DNA of 64,000 nt, from the NCBI GenBank assembly GCA_025201375.1, contig JAIWZP010000073.1, positions 60,267 to 124,266 on the forward strand, written 5' to 3'. Positions 55,864-64,000 of the stretch are shown here, piece after piece (position 1 is the stretch's first letter; each line of letters starts with the position of its first letter). The position numbers and the translations under genes are program-made. The stretch is from Gongronella butleri (Eukaryota; Mucoromycota; Mucoromycetes; Mucorales; Cunninghamellaceae). The notes under the pieces were generated by a model, which made no database searches, was not told the DNA's origin, and worked only from the letters and a program-made list of their open reading frames with translations.

Positions 55864-58743
55864 GAGATCGGAAAATGAGAAAAAAAAGACGAAACGAAAA
55901 AAAGAGGGAAAAAGAAAAAGGAAAAAGGGCCAAGAAACAAAAAGGCCATCTGATATTGAGTGGGCCCAGAAACCTGCCAATTGATTTCAGGGCCCGGCCG
56001 GTCGGCCCGCCCTGCCGACTTCAAATGGCCCCTTTCCACATGAAATTGACAGGTGGCCAATTTCCTGGGATTCCACCGCCTCCTTTTTGTGTTGGCCCAC
56101 GTTTAGCAATGATACTGGTTGCGACCACAACAGATGCCACAAACAAAAATACCAAAAAAAAGCAAGTGACCTGCACCTCACCCGATGCCCTGCTTGCCTT
56201 GTTCATGCATGCACCTATCATATGGCCTACGCGCCAAAGCGCAATACAGTAATAATAAACCAAAGGGACATCGAACAGCGACTTCTCATCTGCAAGAGCG
56301 GCGCGTAGAAAAAAAAAAAAGGTGGACTGACCTTGGAAGACATCGATTTTTCGCGGTTTTGCGTTTTTCGCGTGCCTTGTTGTCGCTACACGACCACCCT
56401 TTTCAACAGCACAAACTACACTGGACGGGCGTCATGCGCTACAATTTGGTTGCTTTCGGCGTCTCAGGGGCCGCCACTGCAGGACCTGTGAAGCCATGAT
56501 GCCTTGATGGTTGATGCCCAGAAGCAACACGAATTCCATGCCAAAAGAATGAGCAACAAGCGGAAAATGCTTAACGATTGACAAAAACTAGTATTTTGCA
56601 GATTTGCACGCAAAAATAGTGTCATCCTGCATTTTTTAATCACATTTCACATTGGACAGTTTCTGGCGCTTGCGATCATTTCAATACTTGAAGCATTGCG
56701 CTAAATTGCACAAAAAAGTGCACATTTGACTTTTGAAAACGATACTGTAGTACAACAGTAAAGCGTGTTTTTCTGACTTTGTCGGTCTGCTGTACCTCCA
56801 GAATTTTTTTTACAGCCTAGCTGCCCACCAACGATTTCCGCGTCGCGGCGTAATCTACGACCCAATGCTCAGGATAGGACCACCCGATTTTTTTTGGACT
56901 CGAAATTTCCAAAAACGTCAGATTTGTTCTCTTTTGCATTCGCTTCGCCACCCGCTTGGTCGACCCCGCTCAAAAATAGCCGCATCGCATTCAGCGCAAA
57001 ATTTGCAACAAATTTTCTTAAACCCCCAAAGCGCTACGACCACTTTTGAAAAACTCAGGGGTCACTCAGGGGTCACACATTTCAATCTCAGAAATGCCAA
57101 ATTTGTGAAATTTCGAGCTCCGAGTGATCAATGCATCCCAAACAGGTAACCCCGACAATTTCCTATTGGCAGACAAAATGGCAGGTCACCCCGAAACTAA
57201 TACTGTAAGAAAAATGCCCAAAGAGTGACGCATGAACAACGATCGACTGAGAAAATCGCCTGCTTTGGTGCGAACTTTTTTTGCAAAATTTAAGGCTTGA
57301 GACTTCCAAATTAAGTGCCTGGATTGCATGGAATTTTATTTTTTTCATTTTTTTTATTTTTTTTTATTTTTTATTTTGCACTTTTTTTGTGGTGAGTGGG
57401 CAGCAAGCTGGTGAAATGACCGATGCAAAAAGTTAAATCCGAAGCTAGCGCACTGAAATTCATCCCATTAGATGCTTTGCTCCCTTGTTTGTTAGTAAAA
57501 CTGTCATAAAAATCACAGGTTTATTAGACCGTTGTCGAGCAAATCGCCATTTAAGAACTTCTCAAATAAAGCAGTTTTCTCTGTCAGTTTTGATCCGATC
57601 GCGGTGAAACAGGTCTTAAATTCCACAGAGACTCAGCAGCTGCATTTGATATGTTAAAAGCATTGAGGATTGTTTTTCCAGTTGTCGAGAAAAGTAGGGT
57701 TGAAAATTAATCCAATCTTTGATCGACTTTTGCAAGCGTGCAAAGTTCGTCCATATTGAATGGGCAAACAATCTGAAAATGACATCCGAATGCGTCTCTT
57801 TCGACTGTTGCTATTTTCACCGCGATCCACAAAATATTTCGAGATCATAAGCTAAATTTGTGAAAATATCGGCATTTTGGATTCATTTGCCCAAGGACCA
57901 AGCCGACCTCTGATTTTTGAGAGTTTGTAGGAACTACGGTACAGTACAGTAGACACCCGAAATAACTTACAGTAATGTATAGGTTTGGGGAGGCGACCCA
58001 ACCATGGTTTGTGGCCTTTAAGACTTTATTTGTGAAAATCATGCAAAAATTGCCAACTTTCTAAAATTGTCGACAACGGCCTACTGTAATTACCCACTCG
58101 CTTTTAACGTTTCTTTATAAATTGGCGTGCCAAAATTACGTCATGGCTATTTTTGGAACCGATCCAATTATGGTTTGTAGCTGTCAGCATTGCATTTGTG
58201 AAAATTCGTGAAATCAGCGCATATCTGGACAACGGCCAGAGTGACCTCTGGTTTTTATTTTTTCTGAAAAGAGGCGCGTTAAAAATTACATCTGATGCCA
58301 AGTTTGGGAATGATTGAAGCAGCACGATTTCACCGCGAAATGATTTTTAAAAAACGCGCCACAGCCAAATTTCCAGCAATGTCAAGTTGCTCGCCGAGTC
58401 AGCTGATCAATGTCGGTATTTTAATTTTTTCTGAAAAGAGAGGAGCCAAATCCTATACTGTATGTGGGAAAGTTTCGTGGCGCTGCAATGAATTCTTGGT
58501 GGTGAAATGATTTTTTTCGAATTTGGAAAAAAAAAGTTGGTCAGGTCAAAATGCATCTGGAGGGTCCCCCGCTTGAGAGGTTCAAGCCCAGCCAGAGAAT
58601 CCAAATCCGTTTGGCGATCTACACCCCAGCACCGTAAGAGTCATTTCTTTAGATGCATCAACCTTGGTTTTCTAAGCAAATCTGCAATAAGAATTGGCGG
58701 TCGACTTGGCCGTTGCCGAGAAAATAGGGATGTATGCCAGAAT
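55864..58743. repeat. Repeat-rich intergenic block left of the A+T-rich element
   Basis: No gene recognised. Diverged repeats: 56590-56710 resembles 6205-6345. Three degraded copies of a unit (ATTTGTGAAAAT then ...GACCTCTG..TTTTT or ACAACGGCC) occur at 57852-57922, 58026-58085 and 58195-58258. 58312-58363 resembles 18672-18722. TACTGTA/TACAGTA heptamers are frequent (for example 56744, 57203, 57945, 58082, 58456). 57337-57380 is a T-rich tract. Confidence 0.6.
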
Positions 58744-58831
58744 AATTGACAAGTTTAAATCGGAGTTTTAAATCGTGCATAAGTAAAATGGCAAAATTGA
58801 ATTTCTATTTATTTAAAAATATGTTCTTTAA

Positions 58832-59704
58832 ATGTTTAGTGAACCTTACATAAATTTGAAAGACTTATTTCATGATGAAGAAAAAGCTTTGTTATATTTA
58901 ATTGAAAATAATTATGTAAATAAATACGAAAAATGTCCAACTTGCAACGAAGATACTCAGTTATATTTGAAAATGAAAGTATATAGATGTAAAAATTATA
59001 AATGTCGCAGAGCATATTCGCCTATGCGTGGTACAATCTTTTCTAAATTGAAATTACCATTAAATATTCAATTACATTTATTAAATTATTTTCTTCTAAA
59101 AATGCCCAATAGTAGTATTGCAACTACTTTAGATATAAGTAGAACTACAGTCACCTTATATAATAAATTATTCAGAAAATACTTGAAAGATAAACAATAC
59201 TTTCATAAAGAAAGAAAAATTGGTGGTGAAGATAAAATTGTTGAAATGGATGAAACGAAACTCTCAAAAAGAAAATATAATAAAGGTCATCGTGTTGAAG
59301 GTGTTTGGATTATAGGTGGAGTTGAAAGAAGTATGGAGAAAAATAAAATTAAAGGAGAAAGATTGTTTTTATTGCCAATTGAAAAGAGAGATACAGAAAA
59401 TATAGATAATATTGTTAAAAAGTTTGTCATTCCTGGTACCACAATTTATACAGATTGCTGGAAAGGCTATAATAACTTAAAAAATATAGGATATAAACAT
59501 CAAACTGTTAACCATAAGAAGCATTTTAAAGATCCTATAACAAATGTTCATACTAATACTATTGAAGGATTATGGAATGGGTTAAAATATGGCTTAGTTC
59601 CAAGAAATAGAACCAGGCAAGGAATTTTATTGCATCTTTATGAATACAGATGGAGGAAGAGAAATAAAAGAAAAAATTTGTGGATGCAATTTCTAAAAGA
59701 TTAA
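58832..59704 (+). CDS. IS1595/ISXO2-like (Merlin) DDE transposase
   Basis: 290 residues, uninterrupted. The N-terminal zinc ribbon has Cys35-PT-Cys38 and Cys53-KNYK-Cys58. A helix-turn-helix follows (MPNSSIATTLDISRTTVTLY). The DDE core has Asp140 in VEMDETKLSKRK, Asp208 in IYTDCWKGYNNL, and a third acidic residue Glu245 in HTNTIEGLWNGLK. The preceding H-x-x-HFKDPITNVHTN is the family's typical lead-in. This zinc-ribbon plus HTNxIE arrangement is that of IS1595 transposases in bacteria and of Merlin transposons in eukaryotes. All catalytic residues are present, so it may be active or recent. Codon use (AAA, ATT, TTA) differs sharply from the host genes, which suggests transfer from an A+T-rich genome. 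Source unknown. Confidence 0.9.
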   Translation: MFSEPYINLKDLFHDEEKALLYLIENNYVNKYEKCPTCNEDTQLYLKMKVYRCKNYKCRRAYSPMRGTIFSKLKLPLNIQLHLLNYFLLKMPNSSIATTLDISRTTVTLYNKLFRKYLKDKQYFHKERKIGGEDKIVEMDETKLSKRKYNKGHRVEGVWIIGGVERSMEKNKIKGERLFLLPIEKRDTENIDNIVKKFVIPGTTIYTDCWKGYNNLKNIGYKHQTVNHKKHFKDPITNVHTNTIEGLWNGLKYGLVPRNRTRQGILLHLYEYRWRKRNKRKNLWMQFLKD

Positions 59705-59809
59705 TAATAAATAAAATAAAATAAAATTGAATATTATTTTACTAAAAAATTGATTCGATCTCTAATAAACAAGATTTAGATACTGCATTTTTAAAATACA
59801 AGATCTAAA

Positions 59810-60100
59810 ATGGATGCAACAGTTGCGGTGAATAGTAAATATAAATCAAATATAAAGAGAAGTTTTATTATTAAAGACATGAAAAATAATGATATTGAGG
59901 AATATAAAATCATACGACAGAAAAATGAATATAAAATTTATATAAAAAGAATGGGATCTTTATTTAAGGAACCTGAATTTATTTATTCGTTTACTAGTTA
60001 TAAAAATAAATCTTGTAAAAATCCTAACAAAAGGAAAATGAATGCAAGCATTGAAGAAGTAGACGTTTTAACAAAATTTAAAAAGATAAAACTTGAATAG
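59810..60100 (+). CDS. Small lysine-rich protein of the Merlin-type element (ORF A)
   Basis: 96 residues, same direction and same extreme A+T codon use as the transposase, starting 106 bp after its stop (MDATVAVNSKYKSNIKRSFI). Two basic clusters (NPNKRKMN, KFKKIKLE) look like nuclear-localisation signals. No known domain. Its middle (NIKRSFIIKDMK, then KNEYKIYIKR) resembles ORF B at 62.8-63.4 kb (NVKRMFIMKEIE, then EKSFKINIEK). An accessory role in the element is an inference. Confidence 0.6.
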   Translation: MDATVAVNSKYKSNIKRSFIIKDMKNNDIEEYKIIRQKNEYKIYIKRMGSLFKEPEFIYSFTSYKNKSCKNPNKRKMNASIEEVDVLTKFKKIKLE

Positions 60101-60210
60101 TATTTTTATGTTAAATGGGCTTGAGACTATACAGTATACTGCCTGAAATAATAATGGATTTCGAAATGATATATAGGCATACAAAAAAAGAAAAATTTTA
60201 AGTTTGTCAA

Positions 60211-61157
60211 CTATGATGAACATCACCCGAAAATAGTGATAAAGGTCTAATTTTAGAAGCTTGAATTTCTATACCAGTTTAGGTCGCACGCCCGTGAAAC
60301 TGGTCTCATTCGATAGAAAATCAAATTCTGCATTTTTCGTCCTGCAAGTTTGTCGTGGGTTATTTTGTCTCGTCGTCACAAGAAAATTCGGATTGAAATG
60401 TTTGATCACGCGTTGCAAGTGTAAAAAAAAGGTCGCGCATCGACGTTGCCAAGCAATGACAAAATGACACGCAAACGCGTAGTTTTCTGTACTGTACGTA
60501 CCAGTTTCAGTCCGATCGTGTCATGATTTACAGTAGCGCGTCGCGGTCGGAAACGTGAATTTATCAATAAATATCGATTTTCTCGTCAACGGCCCGATCG
60601 AACCCCGGTTTTTACGATTGTTTTGAAAAGAAAAACGCCAAAATACCTAAAGGACCAAGTTTTTTCGAGGGACTGCAGTCACCTGATGGCGTGTCATGTC
60701 AATTTGGAAAATGGCGATTTTTCACGGATTTCCCAAGGGGTACAGTCGATCATTTTCACTGATTTTCAAGTCGCGAAATTTCACCCCATCTTACCATAAG
60801 TGGGTGCCATTTAGAATACAAGGCGGATTTTGAAACCCGTCGTAAGTGGCCCACCTGAATAGGTTTCAGCCCTTCTTGGAACCTTTGCACCACTTTTCCC
60901 ATCCTGACCTTCCCACACCTTCCCTCCAATTGGCCCACAGCTCCGCCAGACCGCCATATCCCCAATGAGCCTGCCCCCCCAAAGGTGCCACAGCAACACA
61001 TCACTCCCATTGGTCCACAGAGCCGCGCGTATTCAATTTTGTATGCAAACCATTTGCAAAAAAAAAAAAAAAAAGAAAGAGAAAGGTGACAAGAGGGACA
61101 ACAGGCAAAGAAAAACAAAGACAAGCAAAGAGAATAAAGAGCATGATCAACAGATCC
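60211..61157. other. Intergenic between the A+T-rich element and the KDZ gene
   Basis: 60655-60765 is a fragment of the dispersed repeat (CTGATGGCGTGTCATG and CCCAAGGGGTACAGTCG, matching copy B words). TACTGTA/TACAGTA words lie at about 60489 and 60530. 61058-61150 is A/G-rich next to the KDZ stop. No gene seen. Confidence 0.5.
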
Positions 61158-62693
61158 ATCAGGAAGAGGGGGAAGAGGGGGGGAGGGGAGGAATCTTTTG
61201 GAGATAATGCTCGATCTTTGCTACCTTGGGCTTGAACAATATGGCGGCCATTTGCGCCGCAGCTAGCTGGCCTCCCTCCACGGTGCCGCGCGCAATTTCT
61301 TTTGCGTAAAGATCTGTACTTTTGCGCTCGATGTTGGCGAGGTTCGCGCAAAGAGTGTCAATTTCAGCCTACATGTCGCCATCGCATTTAAAAAAACATA
61401 CGTGATCTGACCGTAATGACACTTCCACCTGTCTTTTTGGTACACTTACGGCGACAAGAATGAATTCCTCTCTGCAGCGCTCGAGCAACGCGACTTGTTC
61501 CGCTTGGGCAATGTTTTCGAAGCAATTGCGCACCACCTCGCTGTCAAGAAACTCAGGGCCCGCAACTGCGCTGGACGAGCTGGTAAGCCTCGGCTTACCG
61601 TGCTTGTCTAATCCAATGGCATTAATTGCGAGTGCTTATTATTGATTTTTCTTTTTTTACATACCAGCAAACTTATTGTAACGCTCCTTGGCCACTGAAA
61701 ACCGGGTTTTCAACACCCAGAGGCGCTTTCGCAATGCTGTCATCGTCTTTTGACCATGCTTTGCCCGTGGGTTGAAGACAATATTGTTGATCTTCTTTAC
61801 CGCTGTGGCGGCCGCATAAACGCTAGAAATTAGGCTCCGGCCCTCATTTTTCGTTATAGCGTCGCGGAATTCCTGGTCGATTTGGCGATTGCCGGTGCGC
61901 TTTGGACGGGGTCGGATGCTGTGAGCACTCTCATAAGCTTCCAGCTCCCTGTTGAGGTCACATCCTGCGCGAGTGGTCCTTGGCTCCATCTTGTTGTACT
62001 CGTGCAAGCTAAGAAGGTACTGCTCGCGCTCGGACAGCCCGGGAAGATGGCGCGTGGTTCCATGGCGTCCAATGCGGATGAACTCTAGCTGTTGCATTAA
62101 AGAGCCTCTGTCCGCGTTTCCCAAGGTATCAAGCGCCTTCTTTTGTGTGTCAATCGCTCGTTTGTAGAATTCGTACAGGGTTTTGCCAGAACCCCATATT
62201 TTGACCTCCCAAACATGATGTAAAAGGGTAGCAATGGTTTGAACGCGAACGCCATGTGACGCGCTTCGCAGGATGGGCACCACCTTTGTAATTGACGCCC
62301 ACGTACGCTCGACACCCTCTCCTAAAAGAATAATGCGAAGAAGCGCGTCAGGTTCTTAAATTAAAGTGGCGTTGACACGCCATCGCACTCTTTTTCGATT
62401 TTTAGCTCATAACATACCATCGCATAAGCCCCATCCTGGTCGGAATCGCGTGGATCGCAGGTAGAAGCAGTCGAGGGTGTGTGCATGGGCGTGGAAGCAC
62501 CCGACAGCGAAATCAATCTCCAAGGGCGGCTGACCATCCTTTGTATTAAAAAAAAAAAAAAAAAAAAAAGAGGCGAATCAGCATCATTTAGCAATTTTTC
62601 CAATTTTTCCAACATGCGGGATCAGCCCTCGCCTTTATTACCTTCATAAAACTGGGTGCAAAGCGGCAGTTGACCTGGTGCGTAATAAAATAC

Positions 62694-63495
62694 ATCAAAT
62701 AGCTGCTTTAAGCCTTCTTGTTATTCTTATTTTTCAGCTTACATCATAAACATGATTTCATTATGATTATAGGTCTCAGGTTTTTCAATTATCCACATTA
62801 GCCATTTTATATTTTATTATACCATATTTTTTGAATATAATTTCAAATTCCTTAAGTAAATGTTTAACATGAATATGTTGTGGATCATCTTTAATTTCAT
62901 TTATTTTAATAAATAGTTTTATATATTTGTACAATTTTTTACATAAATTATCATTCATATAGCTACTACTACTTGGTTTTCTATTTGTTTTAATGTTATA
63001 GTCAATATTTTTGTCACTATTTAGATCACAAGAATGTTTTGTAATATTATTTTCATCATCAATATGATAAGATGGAGCATTTATTTTGGTAGAAAAATCA
63101 GATGTGGGTGAATTATCATATTGATTTGTCTTCATTTTTTTATTATCACTGTTCTCATTTTGATCTATCTCCTTCAACTTTCTTTTTCTATTCTCAATTT
63201 TCTTTTTTCTATTTCTTCTTTTAACTGTATAATCTACAAAAAAGTTAGCATTATCTTTTTCAATGTTGATTTTAAATGATTTTTCGTCTTGATCATATTC
63301 TATTTTTATATTTTTAATATTATACTTCTCTATTTCTTTCATAATAAACATTCTTTTTACATTCTTTAAAAAAGTATTTGAATAAAGTATATCTTCAAAA
63401 CAATTCATCATGGCAATCTTTTTTATAACATCATAATTCAATTTTTAATCCATTTGGTACATTTTCAAAATCTGGGAGCTATTTTCATAATATAC
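62694..63495. mobile_element. A+T-rich island nested in the KDZ gene
   Basis: About 0.8 kb of very A+T-rich DNA with abrupt edges inside otherwise balanced coding sequence. Inner ends carry inverted AAATAGCT (62697-62704) and AGCTATTT (63477-63484). Outside them, TAATAAAATAC (62683-62693) and TCATAATATAC (63485-63495) match at 9 of 11 positions and could be a decayed target duplication, with three extra bases on the left. It encodes only ORF B. Confidence 0.6.
62785..63441 (-). CDS. Lysine/asparagine-rich protein of the nested island (ORF B)
   Basis: 218 residues without introns, ATG 63441 (MNYDVIKKIAMMNCFEDILY). The N-terminal third resembles ORF A. A basic run follows (KRRNRKKKIENRKRKLKEID), a candidate nuclear-localisation signal, then an Asn/Asp/Ser-rich linker and a C-terminal helical segment (YIKLFIKINEIKDDPQHIHV, LLKEFEIIFKKYGIIKYKMA). 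No known domain recognised. The intact long frame in A+T-rich DNA argues for recent selection or recent insertion. Confidence 0.6.
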   Translation of the reverse strand: MNYDVIKKIAMMNCFEDILYSNTFLKNVKRMFIMKEIEKYNIKNIKIEYDQDEKSFKINIEKDNANFFVDYTVKRRNRKKKIENRKRKLKEIDQNENSDNKKMKTNQYDNSPTSDFSTKINAPSYHIDDENNITKHSCDLNSDKNIDYNIKTNRKPSSSSYMNDNLCKKLYKYIKLFIKINEIKDDPQHIHVKHLLKEFEIIFKKYGIIKYKMANVDN

Positions 63496-63761
63496 CTAAA
63501 CATGCATCAATTTCTTCGCGTCAGGGTTCCTGGCTATGACTTCCTTTGTGAGCGCCTTTCCATATTCATAGGATTCGCCAGCGAGGATGTCCATTGTGAC
63601 TATCGGATGGCCATGGCGCGCATCAATGGCACAAAAGATGCCATTGGCATCGCGTACAGTGTTGGTGCTGGAATCGCTTGTGTCTTTGTCCGCCTGAAAG
63701 ACGCTTGAGCAAGTGACAGGCTCGTTCGTCGAGGTGGGATTGACGCCAGCCGCGCCACCGA

Positions 63762-63792
<31 letters not shown>

Positions 63793-64000
63793 TTCGTCAT
63801 CGTCGTCATTCTCATCCTCCAAATTTTCGTTTTCGTCACCTTCCCCGTGATCACCCTCATCATCTGTACACTCATTGTCATTGAGAGTGGCTGGCCCGGA
63901 ATCACCGCCTTCCTCTTTCCGCTCATCGTCCTACAGAAAAAAAAATCAGTGATTAGAATGTGCTAATTTAGCCTTTTTTTTTTTTTAACCTTGCGCAAGT

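Follow-up and report, generated by a model that had tools for sequence, protein, structure and literature searches.

Merlin elements are characterized by inverted ends with a terminal GG and by 8-9 bp target-site duplications, and elements of the related IS1595 family usually carry a single transposase gene (PMC8101967). The text of that paper contains no occurrence of a second open reading frame (ORF), an additional ORF or a passenger, and a Pandoravirus paper mentions Merlin two times, once for an outgroup and once within a reference (PMC4495683). A partner protein is likewise absent from the titles and abstract openings of the Merlin, IS1595 and ISXO2-like literature that we searched (giant-virus, Mucoromycota and passenger-gene topics included), in agreement with a preliminary description of the DNA studied here, which knew of none. 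Here, we characterized a 64,000-nucleotide stretch of Gongronella butleri contig JAIWZP010000073.1 (hereafter, the window) and surveyed the genome, which comprises 33.0 Mb in 110 contigs. The window contains a Merlin/IS1595 element encoding a transposase and a small protein, ORF A, as well as a transposase-free element encoding another small protein, ORF B (Table 1). We give an about even chance to the view that A and B belong to a family of accessory proteins found on a group of AT-rich Merlin/IS1595 transposons that probably spread horizontally, and that the family serves the element, probably via DNA binding.

We examined the kinship of the two proteins, which had been described as sharing a stretch. 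This stretch is present as N-[IV]-K-R, which starts at residues 11, 14 and 16 in the A family and at residues 17 and 20 in the B family; N-x-K-R, a lysine five positions past the arginine and a few further residues are invariant in all five A/B-family proteins. As a pair alone, A and B matched weakly in BLASTP (E 0.014), and hhalign of the A family against the B family gave E 3.9e-4 with a probability of 35%. Note that the B alignment used in hhalign included two pieces of a broken B copy. When the six A-family and B-family pairs were compared by the Smith-Waterman method, the score was reached in 1 to 20 of 1000 shuffles each. With family hidden Markov models (HMMs), the numbers of shuffles scoring as high were 11 (B), 1 (P0001), 3 (A), 21 (P0002) and 14 (the copy on contig C21) of 5000, where P0001 and P0002 are the only outside relatives found, one for B (E 6.5e-25) and one for A (E 3.2e-5), respectively. 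Joint column permutation of B and P0001 gave 0 of 5000 as high, and a similarly lysine-rich transposase, used as a negative control against the family HMMs, was equaled by 3363 and 3948 of 5000 shuffles. The match between A and B is thus not lysine/asparagine bias only, and these comparisons indicate that the two proteins are related beyond composition, as two branches of one accessory-protein family. AlphaFold models, made separately for the A and B families, both placed a helix before three strands, with low confidence. The accessory protein matched no NCBIfam family, and the clusters of A and B resembling nuclear localization signals are basic runs, as judged by eye.

We next describe the six AT-rich elements found in the genome, which measure 1501, 1427, 1376, 571, 742 and 753 bp and have a guanine-plus-cytosine (GC) content of 0.211-0.249. 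Three of them combine a transposase with a small ORF (A or C), and the other three carry A or B alone, including a second, intact A copy on C21 without a transposase and a second, broken B copy on C2. The elements on C41 and C53 encode a transposase 60% identical to that of the window, with the small ORF C in the place of ORF A; this second transposase lineage matched DDE_Tnp_IS1595 with E 1e-19, and its C53 member is broken. Kinship of ORF C to A/B was not significant in the Smith-Waterman shuffles and the family HMM tests. An accessory ORF was present in all six elements, and the transposase search gave no AT-rich copy lacking it. The suggestion that homologues lie beside the transposase held in part: in this genome, it is true of one of the two A copies and both C copies, and of neither B copy. 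On the other hand, the two options offered in the preliminary description, an accessory protein or a non-autonomous relative carrying it, are both realized, since A is an extra gene in a transposase element and B belongs to a non-autonomous element whose ends are related. Among the three transposase-free copies, the accessory ORF is intact in two and its upstream signal, described below, is retained in all three.

Target-site duplications of 8-9 bp flank four of the six elements (GAAAATAG, TAAACATG, GCGAACCAC and, by eye, AGGGGACAC on C2). The C21 element has T8 on each side, an ambiguous duplication, and an exact 8- or 9-bp search gave no credible duplication for the C41 element. A terminal GG was observed at both ends of the window transposase element, at one end of four others and at neither end of the sixth, whose ends are unsure. 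Five elements have a common end pattern by eye, GGTAT-ATATG-A-ATAG-TCTCAG, from which the ends of the window transposase element diverge more. A genome search with this pattern, allowing up to 3 mismatches, hit three of the elements at a single end and matched one other place.

As the preliminary description stated, ORF A adjoins a Merlin-type transposase; the gene is intact and lies in the same element. The transposase matched the DDE_Tnp_IS1595 domain with E 8.6e-17 and the NCBIfam IS1595 family above its cut-off. Among 24 aligned sequences, D208, E245, C35, C38, C53 and C58 are invariant and D140 is conserved in at least 90%; we take the D/E residues to be catalytic and the C residues to be zinc-binding. 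Element ends were defined by looking for inverted ends that match each other and are flanked by exact duplications of 8 or 9 bp. Ends as good as those of the transposase element were found at 4 of 1000 random places (window positions 1-57900) and in 11 of 1000 piecewise shuffles, and ends equally good with GG at both termini were found at 0 of 1000 random places and in 0 of 1000 shuffles. The two elements are the A+T-rich islands of like composition noted in the preliminary description, with GC contents of 0.249 and 0.216 against 0.485 for the whole window.

ORF B had been placed inside a KDZ gene, and this is indeed the case. The ORF adjoining the ORF B island gave only a weak KDZ match (E 8e-5, 22.8 bits, below the Pfam cut-off of 26.6). 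When the flanks of the ORF B element were joined without the insert, 200 of 200 bases matched at six other places in the genome, on C107, C106, C102, C39, C31 and C17 (L073-L078). In these six empty KDZ copies, which are 99.2-99.7% identical to the window flanks (about 500 bp compared to one side, about 1000 bp to the other), the flanks abut exactly and a single copy of TAAACATG is retained. Because six near-identical KDZ copies are empty at the exact site, the ORF B element was inserted recently, into one of at least seven such copies. It therefore moved although it has no transposase of its own. Note that the start of ORF B was corrected, as the TTG originally listed at 63441 falls within the upstream signal and the first ATG is at 63411. 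As a separate observation, the identity of at least 99.2% between the six KDZ copies and the window copy over about 1.5 kb points to a recent burst of KDZ itself.

Table 1. Positions of the two AT-rich elements and their parts in the window.
Feature	Position	Strand	Remarks
Merlin/IS1595 element, autonomous-type, with transposase and ORF A	58728..60228	+	1,501 bp; GC 0.249; inverted ends, 8-bp duplication, GG at both termini
Target-site duplication GAAAATAG	left copy 58720..58727; right copy 60229-60236		8 bp
Left terminal inverted repeat	58728..58753	+	right partner 60203-60228; 16/26 matching
AAAATTGAATT motif before transposase	58793..58803	+	39 nt 5' of transposase ATG
IS1595/Merlin transposase, 290 amino acids (aa)	58832..59704	+	intact; zinc-ribbon cysteines and DDE residues present
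AAAATTGAATA motif before ORF A	59723..59733	+	87 nt 5' of ORF A
ORF A, 96-aa putative accessory protein	59810..60100	+	downstream of transposase, inside same element
Non-autonomous element, ORF B as sole gene	62755..63496	-	742 bp; GC 0.216; ends, duplication, six empty sites
Target-site duplication TAAACATG	low copy 62747..62754; high copy 63497-63504		
Terminal inverted repeat, ORF B 5' side	63471..63496	-	partner 62755-62780; 17/26 matching
AAAATTGAATT motif before ORF B	63435..63445	-	34 nt 5' of ORF B ATG
ORF B, 208-aa putative accessory protein	62785..63411	-	ATG start
KDZ transposase exon split by ORF B element	63499..63822	-	

A common signal precedes the genes of these elements. The six elements together contain ten occurrences of the motif AAAATTGAA, each on the coding strand and 32-140 nt 5' of an ORF, so that all nine ORFs are preceded by it; elsewhere in the six elements, or on the opposite strand, it was not found. 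Note that the length of this motif was picked after inspection. The bare 8-mer AAAATTGA, the core of this motif, occurs 15 times, also exclusively on the coding strand (12 upstream of ORFs and 3 inside them), and is located at most 150 nt 5' of the start codon in all nine ORFs. A Markov model predicts 0.19-0.31 occurrences of the 9-mer per element on the coding strand. Counts as high as those observed arose in 31-86 of 2000 simulations for the four two-site elements, which is mildly unusual; the two B elements were not unusual, with 482 and 509 of 2000 simulations reaching their counts. The constant placement of AAAATTGAA is stronger evidence than its count, though the elements are not independent of one another. 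In 7 of the 10 signals, TATAAAA begins 3-13 bases past AAAATTGAATT. In addition, in two close transposase relatives, P0004 and P0043, the 5' extensions read KKKLNFF and KIEFF, as AAAATTGAATTT would encode, 52 and 60 nt (counted by hand) before the usual transposase ATG, which fits the motif but is no proof of it; these are the two rows whose usual start was pattern-recognized behind an extension. No such peptide was seen by eye in distant transposase relatives with extensions (e.g., P0061, P0063, P0075, P0094, P0098 and P0103).

Substitution patterns were compared between copies. The A pair gave dS 1.28 and dN 0.41 (dN/dS about 0.32, 87 codons; Fisher 6e-4) and the C pair gave dS 0.28 and dN 0.019 (dN/dS 0.07, 66 codons; Fisher 5e-5), indicating that A and C are under purifying selection. 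The corresponding values were dS 1.67, dN 0.30 and dN/dS 0.18 (287 codons) for one transposase pair, and dS 0.26, dN 0.014 and dN/dS 0.05 (210 codons; Fisher 9e-15) for the second pair (TnpC). The transposase has 825 reported relatives, 120 of which give the contig and organism data. Most of these listed relatives come from contigs of about 1-3 kb, and five from contigs spanning 1.6 to 5.9 Mb; no organisms are named other than Mucor hiemalis, Thamnidium elegans and Circinella minor. A 55-row tree was built from 53 of the 55 listed relatives that scored best (those 250-345 aa in length) and two further rows; in it, the window transposase (TnpA) and that of C41 (TnpC) belonged to different supported clades, and 0 of 200 bootstrap trees joined them. 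On the simplest interpretation, two or more transposase lineages probably entered the genome separately, from AT-rich sources; alternatively, the lineages may reflect an old split inside the host lineage.

Several further observations concern the surroundings of these elements. The genome harbors a resident Merlin-like family of ordinary GC, with four copies on C27, C89, C30 and C44 (L004-L007, L027-L030), in which AAAATTGAAT is absent. Two of the four copies were examined for ORFs; an open frame of 523 aa is present in the C30 copy and most of it, by eye, also in the C89 copy. To the right of the ORF A element on C21 (L010: about 1960-2990), a long inverted repeat with ACGCGT-rich sequence was seen by eye, and comparable ACGCGT-rich sequence occurs next to the C2 element. 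Furthermore, TACAGTA and TACTGTA account for 134 of 432 TA-N3-TA heptamers in 116.5 kb (the window and L023-L030, loci chosen for transposons), the next commonest being TATGATA (35) and TATCATA (33). Insertions yielding TACAGTA/TACTGTA (5 bp, one of 6 bp) set otherwise similar element copies apart; the broken ORF B copy contains three of them and the broken C53 transposase one. They resemble what we take to be excision footprints of the Tc1/mariner type.

In the explanation that we prefer, each unit would be bounded by inverted ends and contain a small accessory ORF, a transposase in some copies only, and the promoter-like signal AAAATTGAA in front of each gene. Transposase from one copy would cut and paste any element with fitting ends, giving the 8-9 bp duplications; the ORF B element would have been mobilized in this way by this transposase group, whose lineages would have arrived separately. 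The accessory protein, which is small and basic and has a core predicted to be alpha-beta-beta-beta as well as a basic tail, would go to the nucleus and bind the ends or promoter of its own element, and the carrier copy would consequently be favored as a substrate or kept expressed. Such a benefit in cis would explain why the accessory ORF and its signal are kept in transposase-free copies, as the protein would favor the copy that carries it, and it is in this sense that we infer a help of the protein to the element.

Several points weigh against this explanation. The putative link of the accessory protein to transposition is drawn from sequence and anatomy, and a passenger gene without a role in movement would look similar. 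No further relative of A or B was found at E up to 10 among 5.8 billion proteins, and the contigs of P0002 (at most 547 bp) and P0001 (at most 1363 bp) are short. The models are weak, with a mean predicted local distance difference test score (pLDDT) of 53 for A (64-76 by blocks at residues 21-60) and 38.6 for B (no residue at or above 70), and a fold search with the A model, the only one so used, gave no match. The only B pair, B and its broken copy, gave a dN/dS of 0.48 over 84 codons, which is not significant (P 0.26). Furthermore, the elements were located through their proteins, so that the count of accessory ORFs in six of six is biased and a gene-less copy would be missed; the end-pattern search recovered 3 of the 12 known ends and missed 9, making it a weak test for bare-ended copies. 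Mobilization of the B element by the window transposase itself is also uncertain, as the ends of the two elements differ.

The weak pairwise figures (BLASTP E 0.014, hhalign probability 35%) would be compatible with a chance resemblance between lysine- and asparagine-rich proteins that have no kinship and are both encoded by AT-rich DNA. This was already disfavored and appears very improbable, given that the family-level shuffle tests had a negative transposase control, that the shared stretch lies at a similar position in both proteins, and that the elements are related. An unlikely but more serious alternative is that the protein is selfish cargo that plays no part in cutting or joining and shields the element from host RNA or chromatin silencing, for example through binding to double-stranded RNA. 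Double-stranded-RNA-binding domains typically have the order alpha-beta-beta-beta-alpha, and this order was predicted, with low confidence, for ORF B; the proteins are also lysine-rich, and each gene has a separate signal. However, the confidence of the model is too low for naming a fold, and no double-stranded-RNA-binding family was among the Pfam, NCBIfam or PHROGs matches.

We assign a similarly low probability to adaptation of these transposons to giant viruses, in which AAAATTGA would be an early promoter of Mimivirus-type or pox-type viruses, the elements would have lived in viral genomes and been ferried in by a virus, and the accessory gene would be an early virus-factory gene. The early motif of Mimivirus, found in 45% of its genes, is AAAATTGA located no more than 150 nt from the start (PMC5294985), and an endogenous region of Rhizophagus has revealed a large DNA virus of a fungus (PMC10640383). 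The sense-strand placement of AAAATTGAA before every ORF and nowhere else in the elements, the extension peptides of P0004 and P0043, the GC of 0.21-0.25 against 0.485 for the window and the two transposase lineages in different clades would also fit. On the other hand, five scans of 2.9 million viral contigs yielded no relative of the transposase, A or B, and the listed transposase relatives include the contigs of 1.6-5.9 Mb and the three named fungi. No capsid match was found in this genome, in a search without a positive control. The bare 8-mer also occurs within three ORFs, the per-element motif count is mildly above the Markov expectation and not above it for the two B elements, the distant relatives' extensions lack the peptide by eye, and TATAAAA follows most of the signals, as it might in a cellular promoter. 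By title, none of the literature on giant viruses, transposons and AAAATTGA concerned transposons with that signal. The fuller version, namely a group of eukaryotic transposons that would run on giant-virus early promoters, with genes (the new accessory family included) switched on in the infected cell, and could thereby enter and leave viral genomes and travel with them from one fungus or protist to another, seems a shade less probable still.

Non-autonomous copies usually decay; an accessory gene kept by transposase-free elements that move is contrary to this pattern and offers a simple way of testing the role of such a protein. Were the shared start signal viral, it would offer a direct handle on transposon passage between eukaryotes via giant viruses. 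Bacterial IS1595 elements with passenger genes exist, and they share with the elements described here the transposase family, its N-terminal zinc ribbon and extra genes inside the element. However, the present elements reside in a eukaryotic genome, and their extra protein lies outside NCBIfam families and occurs without the transposase too. Harbinger-type two-component DNA transposons similarly combine a transposase and a small partner protein in one element, whereas here it is the partner, not the transposase, that is present in all six elements; sequence kinship between the two systems was compared via family libraries only. Mimivirus transpovirons and virophages are likewise small and have regulatory signals in common with giant viruses (PMC11464507). 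In contrast to them, the elements in G. butleri are cut-and-paste transposons in a chromosome, for which no shared gene and no viral relative was found. Another close system is the Merlin superfamily of eukaryotes, with which they have in common a DDE_Tnp_IS1595 transposase, short inverted ends, 8-9 bp duplications and, in one element, GG at both termini, and from which they differ by a second gene, by an accessory ORF on non-autonomous copies (intact in two of three) and by AAAATTGAA before each gene.

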